Source: Zoogloea sp. (GTDB lineage: Bacteria > Pseudomonadota > Gammaproteobacteria > Burkholderiales > Rhodocyclaceae). Taken from it: 43,306 nucleotides of DNA. This document shows positions 16,588 to 26,675 of this stretch, in pieces. The stretch covers positions 1-43,306 of the forward strand of contig NZ_JAFLDT010000030.1 in NCBI RefSeq assembly GCF_017302315.1, given 5' to 3'. Both the position numbers and the translations under genes were made by a program. The stretch's first letter is position 1; each line of letters opens with the position of its first letter. Under the pieces are notes generated by a model, which was given only the letters and a program-made list of their open reading frames with translations, was not told where the DNA came from and made no database searches.

Positions 16588-17004
16588 ATGGAACTCAAGG
16601 GACGCAATGCGACCTGGCTTGAACTCGCTGTTGCACCGCTCTGGCGCCTGGGGCAAACCCAGGTGCGTCTGCATGCGCTGAACGGCGGGCGGGAATGCTG
16701 TGTGGGTATTACCGTGGATGACCGATGGCTTTGTGCCAATGATGGCAGGCTCACTGTTTTTGGGTGTCGGGACTCGGCCGTTCGCTTTCTCGAACTGCTG
16801 CGGATAGATCACATGGAAGAGGGTGAGCCGGCAGATATGTCGGCAGATTGCGGTTGTGAGAAAGTCCAATGCCTACGTCTTGGAAGTCGTGGCCTCAGGG
16901 AGTGTGACGGCAGCAATCTCCGTCCTGCTCCCTCGGGCCCAAGACGAATCGTCATTCAGTCACGTCCCCGGCGAGCTTCCTTCGGTAGCGATTTCATGCG
17001 TTGA
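16588..17004 (+). CDS. Hypothetical small protein (138 aa)
   Basis: No family recognised. A strong GGAGGGG Shine-Dalgarno lies just before the ATG, and a terminator hairpin follows the stop, which supports a real gene. The first 75 residues look protein-like (LHALNGGRECCVGITVDDRW, FGCRDSAVRFLELLRIDHM); the Arg/Ser-rich tail after about residue 95 looks less natural, so a frameshift or a late stop is possible. It contains seven cysteines, without a clear metal motif. It is divergent from metY with a 195-bp gap in which no clear promoter stands out. Confidence 0.5.
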   Translation: MELKGRNATWLELAVAPLWRLGQTQVRLHALNGGRECCVGITVDDRWLCANDGRLTVFGCRDSAVRFLELLRIDHMEEGEPADMSADCGCEKVQCLRLGSRGLRECDGSNLRPAPSGPRRIVIQSRPRRASFGSDFMR

Positions 17005-17163: not shown

Positions 17164-17203
17164 TTGTGTTGCGCGCAGGTTTTAGTAAAATAATACGGTA
17201 TTA
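17164..17203 (+). promoter_or_regulatory. Promoter with palindromic operator candidate ahead of the ParA/RHH pair
   Basis: A promoter TTGTGT (17164-17169), 16-bp spacer, TAAAAT (17186-17191) is overlapped at its start-site side by TAATAC-G-GTATTA (17191-17203), a perfect 13-base palindrome. A second overlapping palindrome, GGTA-T-TACC, lies at 17197-17205. This is where an autorepressor would bind; the RHH protein encoded downstream is the natural candidate by analogy with ParG-type systems. Confidence 0.55.
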
Positions 17204-17218
17204 CCTATTGGAGGCGTT

Positions 17219-17881
17219 GTGGGAAGAGCCAAGGTTGTGACTGTGCTGTCCCAGAAGGGCGGTGCCGGGAAGTCCACACTGACCATGCAACTGGCTGGTG
17301 GTTTGGTGCGCAAGGGGCTGAGGGTGGTTGTGATCGATCTCGATCCTCAGGAGACAGCCTTGCGGTGGTCCCACGCGGCGCCAGAGGGTACGCCCTTCCC
17401 GGCAACGGTGATCCAGCTTGGTACGGCCATTGATGGGCTCGGAGGATGCTTGCGTAAGATCGTCCGGGAGGGGGGCATTGTGCTGCTCGACTGTCCGCCT
17501 TCCATCGAGCACCCGGCTACCGTTGCCGCCCTGCAGGAGGCCGACGTGGCTTTGGTGCCTGTGGTGCCCAGCCCGGCGGACCTATGGTCGACGAAAGGCG
17601 TTGAGCGCCTGATCCTTCAGGTTCAGGCCAGTCGCAAGGGGCTGCGCGCCGCGCTGGTGCCGAACCGTGTGGTACGGACGAATCTGGCCTGGGATGTTCT
17701 CGAGGTGATGCGAGACTTTTCCTTGCCCGTCCTGGGGGCTGCCTTGTCCCAACGAAATGCCTTCGCCCAGAGTGCCGTCATCGGTGGAACCGTTTACCAA
17801 CTAGGCCGCGGAGGGGCGGATGCCGCCCGTGAAGTGGACAAACTGGTTGTTGAAGTACTGAAACTGACAGGAGAGAAATGA
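17219..17881 (+). CDS. ParA/MinD-family ATPase, short type Ib-like (ParF-like)
   Basis: A 220-residue deviant-Walker ATPase. The Walker A box SQKGGAGKST at 11-20 has signature Lys13 and Lys18, the A' box is IDLDPQ (40-44) and the Walker B box VLLDCPPS has Asp91. There is no N-terminal helix-turn-helix, so it is the short class used by type Ib plasmid partition and by chromosomal orphan ParAs that position large cargoes. It starts with GTG at 17219, supported by TTGGAGG just upstream. The stop overlaps the next gene's ATG (ATGA), implying tight coupling to the RHH partner. No parB, rep or plasmid genes are nearby, so the cargo is unknown. Confidence 0.9.
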   Translation: MGRAKVVTVLSQKGGAGKSTLTMQLAGGLVRKGLRVVVIDLDPQETALRWSHAAPEGTPFPATVIQLGTAIDGLGGCLRKIVREGGIVLLDCPPSIEHPATVAALQEADVALVPVVPSPADLWSTKGVERLILQVQASRKGLRAALVPNRVVRTNLAWDVLEVMRDFSLPVLGAALSQRNAFAQSAVIGGTVYQLGRGGADAAREVDKLVVEVLKLTGEK

Positions 17882-18597
17882 TGAACACCAAGACCAAGTC
17901 TGCCCTGCGTTCCACGCTGCAGAAAGAAAACGAAGCCCTTGAGGCTCGTTTGCCCGATCCGGTTCAGGACGCCGCGGGCGCCCCGACCCCGGCACCCGCT
18001 GACCCGGTGGCGGTTGAGGCGGTTGCGCCGTCCATCGCTGCCGAGCCTGTTGCTGTCGCCGCGCAGACGCCTGCGAAGCCGGCCACCGCGCCGAAAGCTG
18101 CGAAGCCCGCAGCTTCACCGAAGCCTGCCAAGCCTGCCGTGTCACCGAAGCCTGCGAAGCCGGCTGCCGAATCCAAGCCTGCCGGTGGCGCTGAGAAGGT
18201 GACTGCCCCGGCCGTCAAGAAGGCCGCCGCCACGCCTGCTGCGCGCAGCAAGGCGGTTGCGCCCAAGCCTGCGCCAGCGGCCAAGGCCGAGAAGCCGCCG
18301 AAAAGCGTCAAGCTCGAGAAGGCGGAGAAGCCCGTCAAGGCAGAGAAGGCCGTGAAGGCTGACAAGCCGGTGAAGGCCAGCCGTGAGAAGGTTGTGAGGG
18401 ATTCCTTTTCGATGCCGAAAAGCGAGCATACCCAACTCAAGCAGCTACGTGAGACCCTGGCCAAGGCCGGACGGATCTGCACCAAGTCTGAGCTGTTGCG
18501 CGCCGGCGTCCAGCTTCTGCTGAAAGAGGACGTGACGGGTATCCGGACACTCGTCGAGCGTCTGGTCGTGGTACCCAAGGGCAAAGGCGCAAAGTAA
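17878..18597 (+). CDS. Ribbon-helix-helix protein with long Lys/Ala/Pro-rich arm; probable ParA partner
   Basis: 239 residues in three parts. First is a short basic helix (NTKTKSALRSTLQKENEALE), of the kind that activates ParA ATPases in ParB/ParG proteins. Second is a low-complexity arm of about 130 residues built on AKPA, KPAA and KPVKAEK repeats, like histone-H1-like or AlgP-type tails, which should be disordered and DNA-binding. Third, about 170-220, is a ribbon-helix-helix-like segment: RDSFSMPKSEHTQLKQLRE, AKAGRICTKSELLRAGVQLL. The start is either ATG 17878 or ATG 17881; AGGAG spacing favours 17881. It lies directly behind, and coupled to, the ParA-like gene. The partner role is inferred. 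Confidence 0.75.
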   Translation: MMNTKTKSALRSTLQKENEALEARLPDPVQDAAGAPTPAPADPVAVEAVAPSIAAEPVAVAAQTPAKPATAPKAAKPAASPKPAKPAVSPKPAKPAAESKPAGGAEKVTAPAVKKAAATPAARSKAVAPKPAPAAKAEKPPKSVKLEKAEKPVKAEKAVKADKPVKASREKVVRDSFSMPKSEHTQLKQLRETLAKAGRICTKSELLRAGVQLLLKEDVTGIRTLVERLVVVPKGKGAK

Positions 18598-18608
18598 GGC
18601 CGGATCGT

Positions 18609-20399
18609 TCAGGTTGACGTGGGGGGCTGCTCCGCGGTCTCAAGCCGCACGCGGATCAGGCCCCTCAGGCCGTTGCCCATGAACAGGGCGTCAGCCCGCA
18701 GGAGGTCGTCCATCCTCAGGCGGGCCTCCATCGCTTTGCCTTCCTTGAGCAGACGCTGACGCAGCACGCCGTTGAGCAGACCCGCCTCAAGCGGGGGGGT
18801 CAGCAATACACCCTTCTTTTCCACGAAGAGATTGCTTCGTGCGCCTTCCGTGAGTTCGCCCTTTTCATTCATGAACAAGGCGTCGAAGTGCCCCAGTGCG
18901 GTGACACGCGCAAGTTCGGCATCGTAGAGTGCGCGGGCGGTGGTTTTGTGCCGAAAGAGGGGCTCACCGCTATGGGTGAGCAGGGTTGACAGCACGATGC
19001 TCGGATCGGAGCCCGGTGCGCCATGCTCCAGGCGGGCGGTCTCCAGTGTGAAGTCACCCGCCTGCCCCAGGGTGACGCGAACGCGCGAAGCTTCGCCGGC
19101 GACGACGCTGTCGAGCAGATCGAGAAATCGGGGTTCATCAAAGGGGAATCCGAAAGTCCGTGCGGACGCCCGGATTCGCGCCAGGTGCTCGGGCAGGAAG
19201 GGGAAGGGCGTTTCTCCAGGTGTGTAGCGAAGGGTTTCGATGAGGCGAAGCCCTTTCGGCAGTTCGGTCAGAAAACGCGACTTCAGATGGCATTCGGTCC
19301 ACTCCGCGGCGGGGAGGGAGTCATGGACCACGCCACTGCCGACGTTCAGACGGGCCTGACCGGACGGCTCCACCAGCAGGGTGCGAATCGGCACACTGAA
19401 GCGGAAATCACCCCCCGGGCGTATCCATCCGAGGGCGCCGCAGTACAGGCCGCGGGGCTCGGGTTCCAGTTCTCGGATGATCTCCATGGCACGGATCTTC
19501 GGTGCGCCGGTGATCGAACCGCAGGGGAAAAGGGCCGCGAAGATCTTGTCGAGGCTCGCCGTGACCGGTTCCGCAATGACCCGCGATGTCATCTGCCAGA
19601 CGGTCGGGTAGGGATCGACGCGGAAGAGGTCTTCGACGCGGACGCCACCCGGTGGTGCCAGGCGCCCCATGTCATTGCGAATCAGGTCCACGATCATGAC
19701 GTTTTCGGCCCGGTCCTTCGCCGAATCCGCGAGGACGTCAGGCGTGACGTGACGCGGTGCTGTGCCCTTCATGGGCTGGCTGCTCAGGGTGTTTCCCCGG
19801 CGCTCCAGGAAGAGTTCGGGCGATCGCGACAGGATGACGCCGCCGGGATGGCTGATGAACGCACCGTAGCGTACCGGCTGGGCTCGGCGGAGCGCCCGGT
19901 AAAGACTGGCGGGATCGCCAAACGTGCGACCCGACAAGGGAAAAGTGAAGTTGACCTGGTAGCAGTCACCCTCCTCGATGTATTTGCGAATCCGCGTAAT
20001 GCAGGCCAGATACTCATTTTCAAGGATGTGCGCTTCCAGTTGGCTGGTGCCACCCGCTACCGTTATTGCACGGGCGGTAAGCCAGGCATCGCAGGCATCG
20101 TCACTGAGCCACTCGCCATGCTCGAAGATCCAGCCCGTGAATAGGGGCGAACCGTTGGTGGGGGGGAGCAGGGGCCGCAGGCGGGGTTCGATCAGGTAAC
20201 CGAGTTCGTAGGTGGCCGCAAGGGCTACCCAGGCGCCGTTGCGGGCGGCCTCTTCGAGGCGCAGCAGGGTGGCCTGCCAGTCATCGGTGTGTCGGCAGAC
20301 GACACTCTCCCTCAGTTCGGTGAGGAGCCAGGTTCCGCTTGTATCGGGGCCGTCGAGATTGTTGTCGAAAAGGGCGAAGGTGGGGGGCTGGGCGTTCAC
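18609..20399 (-). CDS. pabB-pabC: Aminodeoxychorismate synthase component I fused to 4-amino-4-deoxychorismate lyase
   Basis: A 596-residue two-domain enzyme for p-aminobenzoate (folate precursor). Residues 1-375 are a PabB/TrpE-type chorismate domain: the PMKGT motif with Lys211 is the aminodeoxychorismate-synthase lysine, followed by DLIRNDMGRL and GSITGAPKIRAMEII. Residues about 380-590 are a branched-chain-aminotransferase-fold lyase (PabC) with the PLP lysine Lys485 in FRHKTTARALYD and MNEKGELTEGARSNLF. Fusions of this kind are common in betaproteobacteria. The glutamine amidotransferase PabA is not in the window. It converges on the ParA/RHH operon with only 11 bp between stops and no visible terminator. 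Confidence 0.93.
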   Translation of the reverse strand: MNAQPPTFALFDNNLDGPDTSGTWLLTELRESVVCRHTDDWQATLLRLEEAARNGAWVALAATYELGYLIEPRLRPLLPPTNGSPLFTGWIFEHGEWLSDDACDAWLTARAITVAGGTSQLEAHILENEYLACITRIRKYIEEGDCYQVNFTFPLSGRTFGDPASLYRALRRAQPVRYGAFISHPGGVILSRSPELFLERRGNTLSSQPMKGTAPRHVTPDVLADSAKDRAENVMIVDLIRNDMGRLAPPGGVRVEDLFRVDPYPTVWQMTSRVIAEPVTASLDKIFAALFPCGSITGAPKIRAMEIIRELEPEPRGLYCGALGWIRPGGDFRFSVPIRTLLVEPSGQARLNVGSGVVHDSLPAAEWTECHLKSRFLTELPKGLRLIETLRYTPGETPFPFLPEHLARIRASARTFGFPFDEPRFLDLLDSVVAGEASRVRVTLGQAGDFTLETARLEHGAPGSDPSIVLSTLLTHSGEPLFRHKTTARALYDAELARVTALGHFDALFMNEKGELTEGARSNLFVEKKGVLLTPPLEAGLLNGVLRQRLLKEGKAMEARLRMDDLLRADALFMGNGLRGLIRVRLETAEQPPTST

Positions 20400-20569: not shown

Positions 20570-21727
20570 TTACAAGAGGGGGCTGCCGGCGTGTTCCCCG
20601 CGCTCGTACACCACGTGGGCACGACCGACCAGCAAGGGGTCCAGGGGGCCGATGTGCTCAATCTCCTTGTTCGTGTAGGGGAGCTTGTGGAGGATGTAGC
20701 GCATGGCGTTCAGGCGTGCCCGTTTCTTGCAGTCCGACTTGATCACCGTCCAGGGCGCGTCGGCCGTGTCGGTGTGGAAGAACATCGCTTCCTTGGCCTT
20801 GGTGTAGTCATCCCACTTGTCGAGGGAAGCAAGGTCAATGGGGCTGAGTTTCCACTGCTTGAGTGGGTGAGCCTCGCGTTCCTTGAAGCGGCGGCGCTGC
20901 TCTTCACGACTGACGGAAAACCAGAACTTGATGATGTGCACACCGCTACGGACAAGGTGACGTTCAAACTCGGGGGTCTGGCGCATGAACTCAAGGTACT
21001 CGTCCGGCGAGCAGAAGCCCATTACACGCTCCACGCCTGCCCGGTTGTACCAGGAGCGGTCAAACAGGGCGATCTCGCCGGCGGTGGGCAGATGCTGCAC
21101 GTAGCGCTGGAAGTACCACTGGCCGCGTTCCGTTTCGGTGGGTTTTTCGAGGGCCACCACCTTGGCGCCCCGGGGGTTGAGGTGCTCCATGAAGCGCTTG
21201 ATCGTACCGCCTTTGCCGGCGGCGTCCCGACCTTCAAAGAGGATGACCACCCGCTGCCCCGTCTCTTTGACCCACGCCTGGAGTTTGAGTAGCTCGACCT
21301 GAAGCCGGTACTTTTGCTTCTCGTAGGCCTTGCGGGACATCAGGTTTTTGTAGGGATAGGCGCCTTCCCGCCAGCCTTCGGCGAGTTCGTCATCGGGATG
21401 GGAAGGCAGCTTTTTGTAGACGGCTTCGTCCTCAGCGAGCAGGGCCTTGCGCAGAATGTTGGCGTCGTCGGGTGAGGCGCCGGCCATGATGGCCTGCAGG
21501 GTTTCGGCAATACTGTGGGTGTCGTGACGGGCCAGGGTGGCGACGATGTCGCTGACAGCGGAGAGCTTGGCATCCCGGGCGGCATCAACGGCCTCGTTGA
21601 CCTCGAAATTCTCAATGGCGTCAGGCGTGTCCTTCGGTGCGGTGTCGCCCGAACTGGTGCGCCGGGCCGTCGGCTTGCGCGGCGCCTTGACTGGGGGTTG
21701 AGGGGCAGCGTCCGGTTTAGCGCTCAT
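20570..21727 (-). CDS. ppk2: Polyphosphate kinase 2 (PPK2 family)
   Basis: Transfers phosphate between polyphosphate and nucleotides (GDP/ADP to GTP/ATP or NMP, by class). 385 residues: a charged Ala/Pro/Lys-rich tail and helical extension (1-115), then the PPK2 core with Walker A GRDAAGKGG at 166-174 (Lys172), PRGAKVVALEKPTE, and the Walker B/lid motif FDRSWYNRAGVERVMGFC starting at Asp223. The start MSAKPDAAPQ has GGAAG upstream. It is probably its own unit on the minus strand. The nucleotide specificity class (I, II or III) cannot be fixed by eye. Confidence 0.93.
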   Translation of the reverse strand: MSAKPDAAPQPPVKAPRKPTARRTSSGDTAPKDTPDAIENFEVNEAVDAARDAKLSAVSDIVATLARHDTHSIAETLQAIMAGASPDDANILRKALLAEDEAVYKKLPSHPDDELAEGWREGAYPYKNLMSRKAYEKQKYRLQVELLKLQAWVKETGQRVVILFEGRDAAGKGGTIKRFMEHLNPRGAKVVALEKPTETERGQWYFQRYVQHLPTAGEIALFDRSWYNRAGVERVMGFCSPDEYLEFMRQTPEFERHLVRSGVHIIKFWFSVSREEQRRRFKEREAHPLKQWKLSPIDLASLDKWDDYTKAKEAMFFHTDTADAPWTVIKSDCKKRARLNAMRYILHKLPYTNKEIEHIGPLDPLLVGRAHVVYERGEHAGSPLL

Positions 21728-21864: not shown

Positions 21865-22788
21865 TCAGAGGGCGGAACGGGCTGCCCGTCGGGCGCAGCG
21901 CTCGGCATAGGCCCTGCAGCGTGCGATGTACTCGGTTGCACTCTTTGGCATGGGGGTGCGTGCCCGAGTGATGTAGCTCACCAGGTCGCGTCCCTGCTCA
22001 ATGAGCAGGCGGCCGTCGGCAACGAGGTGCTGTTCCTCGAGATTGACCGGCATTGCGTCAGTGTTGAAGTGGCCGCACATGCGTTCGGCTGCGGTGACGA
22101 AACTGGTCCAGATGTCGAAGATGTCCGGATCGGTACGCAGGGTTTCGGTCTTGATCTTGGCAGCGCCGGCGAACTCATGGACGTGGGGCTCAACACCCTT
22201 GAAACAGGGCAGAGGTTCGAAGGTCTCGACCATCGCCTCCGCCAGCAGATCAATGTCGCGTAGTGTCATGGCGATCTTGACGTAGCGACTCTCGTAGAAA
22301 TCCTCGAGGGGGATTGAGAACGCCTTGAAGGGCTCGCCCCACAGTTCATCGATGCCTTCTTCACCCGAACGGTGCAGCACCAGGCGGCCCAGACCCAGGG
22401 CTTCTTGCAGACAACGCCCGCATTCGCGCATCAGGGCATTGTCGGACTGGATCTCGATGCCCACGCTCTGCAACTCCACCAGCTTGGTGAAGATGTCTGC
22501 GGCCCGATTGAACAGGGCGCCTGCCAGCATGGCACCCTTGACACGGCGACGGTCGGAATCGGCTTCTTCCTCGTAGCTTTTTCGCGCCTCATTTAGACGG
22601 CTGCCGGGAATGTTGAGGCCGTGCTCCACATGATTGAAGAGACGGCGGGTCAGGGCGCCGATCAACTTACGCTTGGCCTGCAGGGTGTCTTCGGGAACCT
22701 TGTAGGTCTTGACCCAGTATCCTGAGTAAAAAACCCGTTCCCGCCCGTTGATGATCTGCTTGGTGCCTTCCGGAACGTCGTTGTCCAT
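21865..22788 (-). CDS. Conserved-looking hypothetical protein (307 aa)
   Basis: I do not recognise the family. It is soluble, mixed helical and rich in charged residues, with no signal peptide or membrane segment. The start MDNDVPEGTKQIINGRERVF is followed by WVKTYKVPEDTLQAKRKL. Potential metal ligands occur (ECGRC at about 122-126, HVHEF at about 205-209) but do not form a known motif. It ends with an Arg/Ala-rich tail. It lies between ppk2 (137 bp downstream) and moaA on the same strand, and codon use matches its neighbours, so it is likely a genuine chromosomal gene. Confidence 0.7.
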   Translation of the reverse strand: MDNDVPEGTKQIINGRERVFYSGYWVKTYKVPEDTLQAKRKLIGALTRRLFNHVEHGLNIPGSRLNEARKSYEEEADSDRRRVKGAMLAGALFNRAADIFTKLVELQSVGIEIQSDNALMRECGRCLQEALGLGRLVLHRSGEEGIDELWGEPFKAFSIPLEDFYESRYVKIAMTLRDIDLLAEAMVETFEPLPCFKGVEPHVHEFAGAAKIKTETLRTDPDIFDIWTSFVTAAERMCGHFNTDAMPVNLEEQHLVADGRLLIEQGRDLVSYITRARTPMPKSATEYIARCRAYAERCARRAARSAL

Positions 22789-26181: not shown

Positions 26182-26257
26182 TGGCTCCTCGACCTGGGCT
26201 CGAACCAGGGACCTACGGATTAACAGTCCGGCGCTCTACCGACTGAGCTATCGAGGA
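26182..26257 (-). tRNA. tRNA-Asn (GTT), copy 2
   Basis: A 76-nt cloverleaf on the minus strand: acceptor TCCTCGA/TCGAGGA, D-arm AGCTCAGTCGGTAGAGC, anticodon loop CTGTTAA with anticodon GTT, T-arm around GGTTCGAGCC, discriminator G and an encoded CCA. It is identical to the copy at 26600-26675. It has its own TTGACT-17-TATAAT promoter and terminator. Confidence 0.97.
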
Positions 26258-26269
26258 ATTGAGTCAAAT

Positions 26270-26298
26270 ATTATAGACATGGAGCCCCTTGCAGTCAA
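26270..26298 (-). promoter_or_regulatory. Sigma-70 promoter of tRNA-Asn copy 2
   Basis: Minus strand TTGACT (26298..26293), 17-bp spacer, TATAAT (26275..26270), near-perfect consensus. The start would fall 5-8 bp before the mature tRNA 5' end at 26257. Confidence 0.88.
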
Positions 26299-26550
26299 CA
26301 TCATTGGGGCGTTGTGCCGCGTCTCAAGCTTGCTGGCCTGGGGCCGGTTGATCGTCGTGTGTCGGTCGTAAAGATGGCGGGCGGCTGGTGCGCAGGGCTT
26401 GCCATTGCTTTCCCGCTGGCTTGAAGCCGCTGAAGCGCGTTCTGCCCCTCGTCTGTGGGTTCGTGTCTTGGAGGGGGGAATCCGGTATCGGGTGTGGCCG
26501 TCGTCTCGCGAGCGGCCATGGTGGACGGAGACGGTCTTACGGACGAGGGG

Positions 26551-26592
26551 AAAAAGCAAGAGGCCAACCCATAAAGGGGTGACCTCTTGCTT
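26551..26592 (-). terminator. Terminator of tRNA-Asn copy 1
   Basis: Minus strand AAGCAAGAGG (26592..26583) pairs with CCTCTTGCTT (26563..26554), followed by T5. The inner part (CCAACCC/GGGGT) is clearly related to the terminator after copy 2. Between this and the copy-2 promoter, about 250 bp hold no gene I can support. Confidence 0.88.
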
Positions 26593-26599
26593 GGATCTT

Positions 26600-26675
26600 T
26601 GGCTCCTCGACCTGGGCTCGAACCAGGGACCTACGGATTAACAGTCCGGCGCTCTACCGACTGAGCTATCGAGGA
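26600..26675 (-). tRNA. tRNA-Asn (GTT), copy 1
   Basis: A 76-nt tRNA including encoded CCA, identical in sequence to copy 2. Anticodon GTT, discriminator G73, acceptor TCCTCGA/TCGAGGA. It is preceded by a TTGACG-17-TAAAAT promoter with a GC-rich discriminator (GCGCGCC) as found at stringently controlled stable-RNA promoters. Confidence 0.97.

Follow-up and report, generated by a model that had tools for sequence, protein, structure and literature searches.

The two genes described here encode a short ParA ATPase and a lysine-rich partner protein, and form a type Ib-like partition pair on a bacterial chromosome that is most likely a granule-positioning system. They lie in a Zoogloea sp. contig (NZ_JAFLDT010000030.1) whose positions 1 to 43,306, read on the forward strand, make up the whole stretch of DNA that was analysed, hereafter the window. 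Gene context points to polyphosphate as the cargo, and the reading in which the ParA uses an AlgP-like adaptor to position polyphosphate granules is given close to, and slightly below, an even chance. The broader proposal is ATP-driven spacing and partitioning of polyphosphate granules by a ParF-type ATPase acting on a ribbon-helix-helix (RHH) adaptor that carries an H1-like arm and would belong to a wider betaproteobacterial family of polyphosphate-granule tethers, many of them ParA-independent; it is put forward with somewhat less than even confidence. An initial annotation of the locus, made from the letters of the DNA, had arrived at a similar interpretation, which is partly supported.

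A promoter/operator region (17,164–17,218, + strand), delimited from the sequence 5' of the parA start, precedes the pair. The parA gene (17,219–17,881, +) has a GTG start and encodes 220 amino acids, and an ATGA overlap joins its stop codon to the start of the partner gene (17,878–18,597, +), which codes for a 239-residue protein with a pI of ~10.1. The open reading frames and a Pfam scan bear out the initial description of a short ParA without an HTH that is overlapped at ATGA by a 239-residue partner, and no HTH family is among the Pfam matches of the ParA. The ATPase scores 179.5 bits against the 'ParA family partition ATPase' model NF041546, just below its 180-bit cut-off, and its nearest solved structures by sequence are ParA 5u1g and ParF 4dzz, both at E ~2e-19. 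It therefore has the type Ib features of a short ParA that lacks an N-terminal HTH and is closest to ParF, and a KGGxGK Walker A motif places it with the ParA/MinD (deviant Walker A) ATPases. Judged by these comparisons, the ParF resemblance proposed in the initial annotation is real. Residues D40, D42 and Q44 are kept in at least 95% of 50 ParA rows; Walker A is conserved in the same rows by construction, the motif having been used to locate them.

The partner is divided into three parts. The first is an N-terminal helix (residues 4–24; 17,887–17,949, +), predicted with a pLDDT of ~90, which is a putative ParA-contact motif. The second is a Lys/Ala/Pro-rich arm (residues 27–168; 17,956–18,381, +), predicted to be disordered from pLDDT and composition; confidence is low from about residue 31 to 170 (block mean pLDDT <60), and K, A and P make up 68% of the arm. 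Its first 39 residues are acidic (net charge −5) and the next 103 basic (net +18). The Lys/Pro/Ala-rich disordered tail that marks AlgP-like proteins is thus present, in a central and not a C-terminal position. The third part is a C-terminal RHH-like domain (residues 169–239; 18,382–18,594, +), identified by structure prediction, profile and Pfam, with predicted helices at residues 181–228. No phasin domain was found in the partner by the Pfam scan.

Several lines of evidence bear on the identity of the C-terminal domain. Folded alone, it is predicted as an extended stretch followed by three helices with a mean pLDDT of 87.9. A profile built from the domain's family picks up RHH proteins of the ParD antitoxin type at E 3e-4 to 3e-3; hits to unrelated chains begin at E 0.005 in the same search. 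The Pfam ParD_antitoxin family matches 15 of 53 RHH-family members at E ≤ 0.01. Because the matches from a monomer fold search with the domain are weak and the window partner itself reaches only E 0.21 against ParD_antitoxin, under the cut-off, the domain is modelled as a probable, not a certain, RHH. The order of helix, Lys/Ala/Pro arm and RHH-like domain given in the initial annotation thus holds as a predicted structure; an RHH-like fold is indeed predicted, but the fold search lends it only weak matches. A toxin–antitoxin reading, raised by the ParD matches, was rejected: the adjacent genes are parA and pabB, and neither is a toxin.

Median dN/dS relative to the window is 0.12 for ParA (n = 18), 0.12 for the N-terminal helix (n = 15 of the 18 pairs, three being left out for unusable dS), 0.38 for the arm (n = 18) and 0.09 for the RHH domain (n = 18); these values are rough, with dS near or above 1 and close to saturation. 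By this measure ParA, the N-terminal helix and the RHH domain are under purifying selection. The pair could conceivably be a plasmid or integrated-element remnant without present function, ParF-like ParAs being common on plasmids (1491 PLSDB records match), but a dN/dS of ~0.1 on both folded parts, a gene order conserved in the genus, mostly housekeeping neighbours and the absence of any plasmid match at 60% identity make this very improbable, and it is disfavoured. A plasmid origin of the window copy was likewise rejected after a tblastn search of PLSDB, in which no ParA match reached 60% identity and the top match was 41.6% among the 30 of 1491 matches listed. Three plasmid ParA regions were examined: two have ParB/RepB/Spo0J partners, and the third has no partner listed directly downstream in a gene table that is incomplete. 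The RHH domain matches 11 plasmid records, mostly very large replicons; the one match examined stands beside arsenic genes, not a ParA.

The surroundings of the pair are those of a chromosome. Besides the pair and a polyphosphate kinase gene discussed below, 22 window ORFs were scanned with Pfam, from a total of 60 of at least 180 amino acids (antisense ones included) plus shorter ones, and 15 of the 22 have a match above cut-off. They are mostly housekeeping genes (LeuA, PabB, DHFR, UvrB, RNase E, FabH/FabD-type), together with a phenol-hydroxylase-type protein and a two-component pair. Neither a replication gene, as the initial annotation had stated, nor a carboxysome gene is seen among the window ORFs scanned. 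An orthologue lies on a 1.98-Mb contig, and the 52–59% relatives lie on contigs of 3.2–5.2 Mb. The pair is not assigned to plasmid type Ib partition, because the plasmid setting, a plasmid-borne pair with replication genes, is not what was found.

Among 100 relatives searched, a strong ParA orthologue (at least 338 bits, rounded) is present in 19 of 23 same-genus genomes, the window's own included. Of the genus genomes without one, three are 72–89% complete and the other, G018, carries an internally deleted parA. The partner ORF overlaps parA in 19/19 genus loci, one of them cut by a contig end, and gene order around the pair is conserved within the genus; the adjacency that the initial annotation had proposed to check is thus kept in 19/23 genomes. 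The nearest named record is Zoogloea sp., with 99% identity over the RHH domain. The initially annotated perfect palindrome, TAATAC-G-GTATTA, is present upstream of parA (17,191–17,203) and is a putative operator of the RHH protein. Shuffled versions of the window yield 0.02 palindrome matches at up to two mismatches, and a reversed control pattern occurs in 0/60 genomes. The exact palindrome occurs in 19/23 genus genomes, in single copy in each except G013 (twice), and in 1/37 other genomes searched (G071). Its carriers in the genus are 18 of the 19 genomes with a ParA orthologue, together with G018; the remaining orthologue-bearing genome, G014, has a variant of the palindrome. The single exact site is located at the parA promoter or, in G018, 5' of the parA remnant.

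A lone site of this kind could also be read as a single centromere-like site, with the RHH protein as its centromere-binding protein; the pair would then be a domesticated partition system acting on the chromosomal locus that encodes it, either to move or to anchor that locus. The ParF-like ATPase, the RHH-like partner and the occurrence of the lone exact palindrome at the promoter or the G018 remnant in 18 of the 19 genus carriers are all consistent with this; it leaves the arm, the polyphosphate context and the ParA-less relatives that keep the arm and RHH domain unexplained, and is considered unlikely. In other genera the palindrome is mostly no longer perfect, and a half-box, GTATTAC/GTAATAC, remains in most loci, so that the conservation looked for in the initial annotation holds for the whole palindrome within the genus, but beyond it mostly for the half-box only. 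The box is found in 18/18 Zoogloea loci with ParA (0.02 expected) and in 18/25 other betaproteobacterial loci with ParA (0.06 expected), and in 0/6 cyanobacterial loci with ParA.

Relatives were also sought by the RHH domain alone in one scan of named genomes, which returned 78 loci. A ParA scoring above 100 bits is nearby in 49 of these and absent in 29, of which 25 are non-Zoogloea. In the ParA-less relatives the RHH domain is retained, as is the arm in most cases, and the helix motif is lacking. With a motif model trained on Zoogloea alone and the 22 Zoogloea loci therefore left out of the count, 29/31 ParA-linked loci carry the helix motif at 3 bits or more versus 1/25 ParA-less loci; the threshold was chosen after the scores were seen, the count is tree-free, and the loci share ancestry and are not independent. 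The two ParA-linked misses are a truncated partner ORF (L095) and a divergent copy (L105), and one ParA-less locus among the 25 (L078) is cut by a contig end. The ParA-less exception (L096) is from Thauera phenolivorans (G109), a genome with an unlinked ParA of 58% identity; no RHH ORF was seen in the 2.4 kb listed around that ParA. For 20 of the 29 ParA-less loci the host genome was searched for ParA, and G109 alone has a nearly complete one at 50% identity or more. Others have ParAs of at most 38% identity over most of their length, and a different ParA might serve the RHH protein in ParA-less genomes.

Individual losses show the same association. In Zoogloea oleivorans Buc (L063, 8,681–9,515), only the two ends of parA are left and the helix motif has become shorter, scoring 29.8 bits versus 57–67 in the 18 Zoogloea loci with ParA, and the arm, RHH domain and palindrome are retained. 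Two Azoarcus loci (L081 and L082) have the gene order of two ParA-plus loci (L075 and L098); ParA and the motif are both gone, and the arm remains, with ~300 residues ahead of the RHH domain. These patterns are most simply explained if the helix serves for contact with ParA, and if the arm and RHH domain have a task for which ParA would not always be required.

The retention of arm and RHH domain in many ParA-less relatives also fits a partner that is mainly nucleoid-associated or regulatory, an RHH repressor with an H1-like tail, whose DNA binding or spread is only tuned by ParA; the operator box in 6/24 ParA-less non-Zoogloea loci, versus 0.53 expected, agrees with such a role. It is nonetheless judged improbable. 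Within the genus genomes the exact palindrome is confined to this locus and, in G013, one further place, which leaves no exact-site regulon visible, and because the helix motif tracks the presence of ParA, a dedicated helix–ParA contact is indicated. The palindrome as the mark of a regulon had itself been considered and was rejected, the exact site being essentially single copy per genus genome when exact matches are counted.

The granule-positioning system proposed here would work as follows. The RHH domain would dimerise and repress its own promoter at the palindrome. The N-terminal helix of the partner would contact ATP-bound ParA on the nucleoid and stimulate its ATPase, and the long Lys-rich arm would bind polyphosphate granules, and perhaps DNA, in the manner proposed for the KPAA tail of AlgP. 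Through release and rebinding of ParA, the granules could then be distributed over the length of the nucleoid and divided between the daughter cells. The comparisons above support the predicted domain layout, the conservation of the pair, its operator box and the association of the helix motif with ParA; dimerisation, autorepression and ATPase stimulation are what we infer, as is, from gene context, the polyphosphate cargo.

That context begins in the window. A polyphosphate kinase 2 (PPK2) gene (20,570–21,727, −; PF03976 at 1.3e-106, TIGR03707 at 395.9 bits) is a conserved neighbour on the opposite strand and does not share an operon with the pair; a single gene, pabB (18,609–20,399, −), separates it from the partner gene. 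Across the 78 RHH-domain loci, neighbouring genes were clustered blind to function and their representatives identified afterwards. Polyphosphate-type genes (PPK1, PPK2/PAP, CYTH, CHAD and PhoU) were counted within 3 kb, matches below 100 bits being excluded (one PPK2-like, in L093). Such a gene is present in 43/78 loci. In Zoogloea, PPK2 lies within 3 kb in 19/22 loci, and the other three have downstream flanks shorter than 1.9 kb. Outside Zoogloea the count is 24/56, made up of 8/31 ParA-linked and 16/25 ParA-less loci. CYTH is the sole polyphosphate-type gene in 7 of those 8 ParA-linked loci, and the CYTH family is not confined to polyphosphate enzymes.

The loci fall into about 17 arrangements, about 6 with a polyphosphate-type gene and about 11 without; both the grouping and the independence of the arrangements are the author's judgement. 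First, the Zoogloea arrangement has PPK2. Second, in a Gallionellaceae-type arrangement with PPK1 and PAP (9 loci), the RHH gene lies between the PPK1 and SixA-like/PAP genes, the SixA-like representative falling just under the NCBIfam cut-off. Third, in a Hydrogenophilales-type arrangement (3 loci), the RHH gene follows PPK1 (0.3–2.5 kb) and CYTH-CHAD (2.4–4.6 kb). Fourth, a Thauera-type arrangement has CYTH. Fifth, A. toluvorans (L094) has PPK2, divergent from parA, and CYTH. Sixth, in Paraburkholderia (two genomes), PhoU adjoins the locus in 3/3 cases and CHAD is ~2.5 kb off in 2/3. No polyphosphate gene accompanies, among others, the Azoarcus-type loci, those of cyanobacteria and several from Thauera. 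Tallies made by hand for 8 genomes, which missed a CYTH gene seen near L094, give a chance of ~1.1% per locus, or 0.18 expected in 17 groups; the corresponding Poisson probability for 6 of 17 groups, ~5e-8, assumes independent groups and evenly spread genes and is a guide only. Counting against the polyphosphate reading are the stronger context of the ParA-less loci outside Zoogloea, the predominance of CYTH in the ParA-linked ones, the separate operon of the Zoogloea PPK2, and the about 11 of 17 arrangements that have no such gene.

The same machine could instead carry PHA/PHB granules, the arm acting like the histone-like tail of PhaF/PhaM and a phasin providing the granule contact. The window genome has five phasin matches, and a phasin gene lies within 3 kb in 7/78 loci (counted with no bit-score floor, one match being weak at 65 bits). 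Passages of PMC9239181 describe the C-terminal domain of PhaF as highly homologous to that of AlgP, and in parts of PMC3783465 an HC2 histone-like protein and a CYTH-CHAD protein are reported on Herbaspirillum PHB granules; because of the latter report, gene context does not draw a clean line between polyphosphate and PHB. All seven phasin loci are of the Thauera-type arrangement, however, against six arrangements with polyphosphate-type genes, and none of the five phasin matches is on the window's contig. A PHA/PHB cargo therefore appears rather unlikely, with polyphosphate the leading candidate and PHA second among granules. The granule cargo guessed in the initial annotation, with polyphosphate or PHA as examples, thus gains gene-context support that leans to polyphosphate, but a phasin lies nearby in one arrangement only, and the cargo itself is a deduction.

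Compared with ParF–ParG of TP228, the pair has a short ParA nearest to ParF, an RHH-like partner encoded directly 3' of parA (the RHH matches by fold search and Pfam being weak) and an operator-like site 5' of it. ParG also has an N-terminal tail ahead of its RHH domain, as in the window partner, which is approximately threefold larger through its K/A/P arm. Unlike ParF–ParG, the window pair is chromosomal, has no replication genes seen beside it and has ParA-less relatives. The type Ib ParF–ParG system is mentioned in part of PMC9178275. According to passages of PMC10241942 and PMC12204374, partners of ParA/MinD proteins touch their ATPase via a positively charged or basic N-terminus. McdA–McdB is similar in that a nucleoid-type ParA would be contacted by the N-terminal helix of its partner (passages of PMC12204374); unlike that system, the window partner has an RHH-like domain and an H1-like arm, and no carboxysome gene accompanies it in the ORFs scanned.

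AlgP of P. aeruginosa, which has a KPAA-rich H1-like tail, is described in sections of PMC9239181 as located on polyphosphate granules and needed for their even spacing. The window partner shares with AlgP, likened here by description, a long Lys/Pro/Ala-rich disordered tail, a nucleoid link and a polyphosphate link, the last seen here in gene context. AlgP has an N-terminal helical domain followed by a C-terminal tail, whereas the arm of the window partner is central, an RHH-like domain follows it, and a ParA is coupled to it. Portions of a 2025 review (PMC13052382) list as unknown whether the positioning of PHB and polyphosphate granules, including that by AlgP, depends on ATP, and suggest that a mechanism like that of carboxysomes might underlie spacing. 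From the same portions, PhaF and PhaM resemble the partner through a histone-like domain, with which they bind DNA and keep granules attached to the nucleoid; unlike them, the partner has no phasin domain found and a ParA ATPase is present. In the open-licence PMC literature, none of the matches listed links a ParA to polyphosphate granules, and the search did not establish polyphosphate storage by Zoogloea. The pair is a concrete candidate for ATP-dependent granule positioning in cultured bacteria, the RHH loci including some from named Zoogloea, Thauera and Aromatoleum isolates. Natural ParA-less relatives, such as Z. oleivorans Buc and Azoarcus indigens, serve as built-in comparisons, and the pair shows how a plasmid-type partition cassette could gain an organelle role.

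Other ParA-linked genes were seen in the scanned genomes. At L024 (878–1,444, −), a more distant ParA (39%) is accompanied by a similarly organised partner, which has a basic N-terminus and a K/A arm but differs in its C-terminal part; no Pfam domain scores above cut-off there. L027 (2,118–3,218) and L028 hold other distant ParAs with short basic partners ending in HPDRVWPD, and in L027 an AAA-type ORF of CbbQ-like appearance comes next. A macrodomain-like gene, recognised by sequence, lies on the opposite strand just upstream of parA in L055, L056, L060, L061, L068, L071–L073 and L079, and upstream of the RHH gene in the ParA-less L074; it is not seen at the corresponding place in the window. 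In cyanobacterial loci L117–L120, L122 and L125, the helix motif is joined to a short linker low in K/A/P and the ParA is encoded upstream on the other strand, and A/T-rich repeats precede several cyanobacterial parA genes.

Within the window, a protein of ~306 residues (21,865–22,788, −) adjoins PPK2 and has no Pfam or NCBIfam match above cut-off; its cluster is present in 17/78 loci, 16 from Zoogloea and one from Cognatazoarcus (L074). A 138-residue ORF (16,588–17,004, +) lies 5' of parA, has no Pfam match at 1e-5 and by eye resembles a neighbour cluster present in 17/78 loci. Two tRNA-Asn genes with the same anticodon lie ~340 bases apart at 26,182–26,675 (−).
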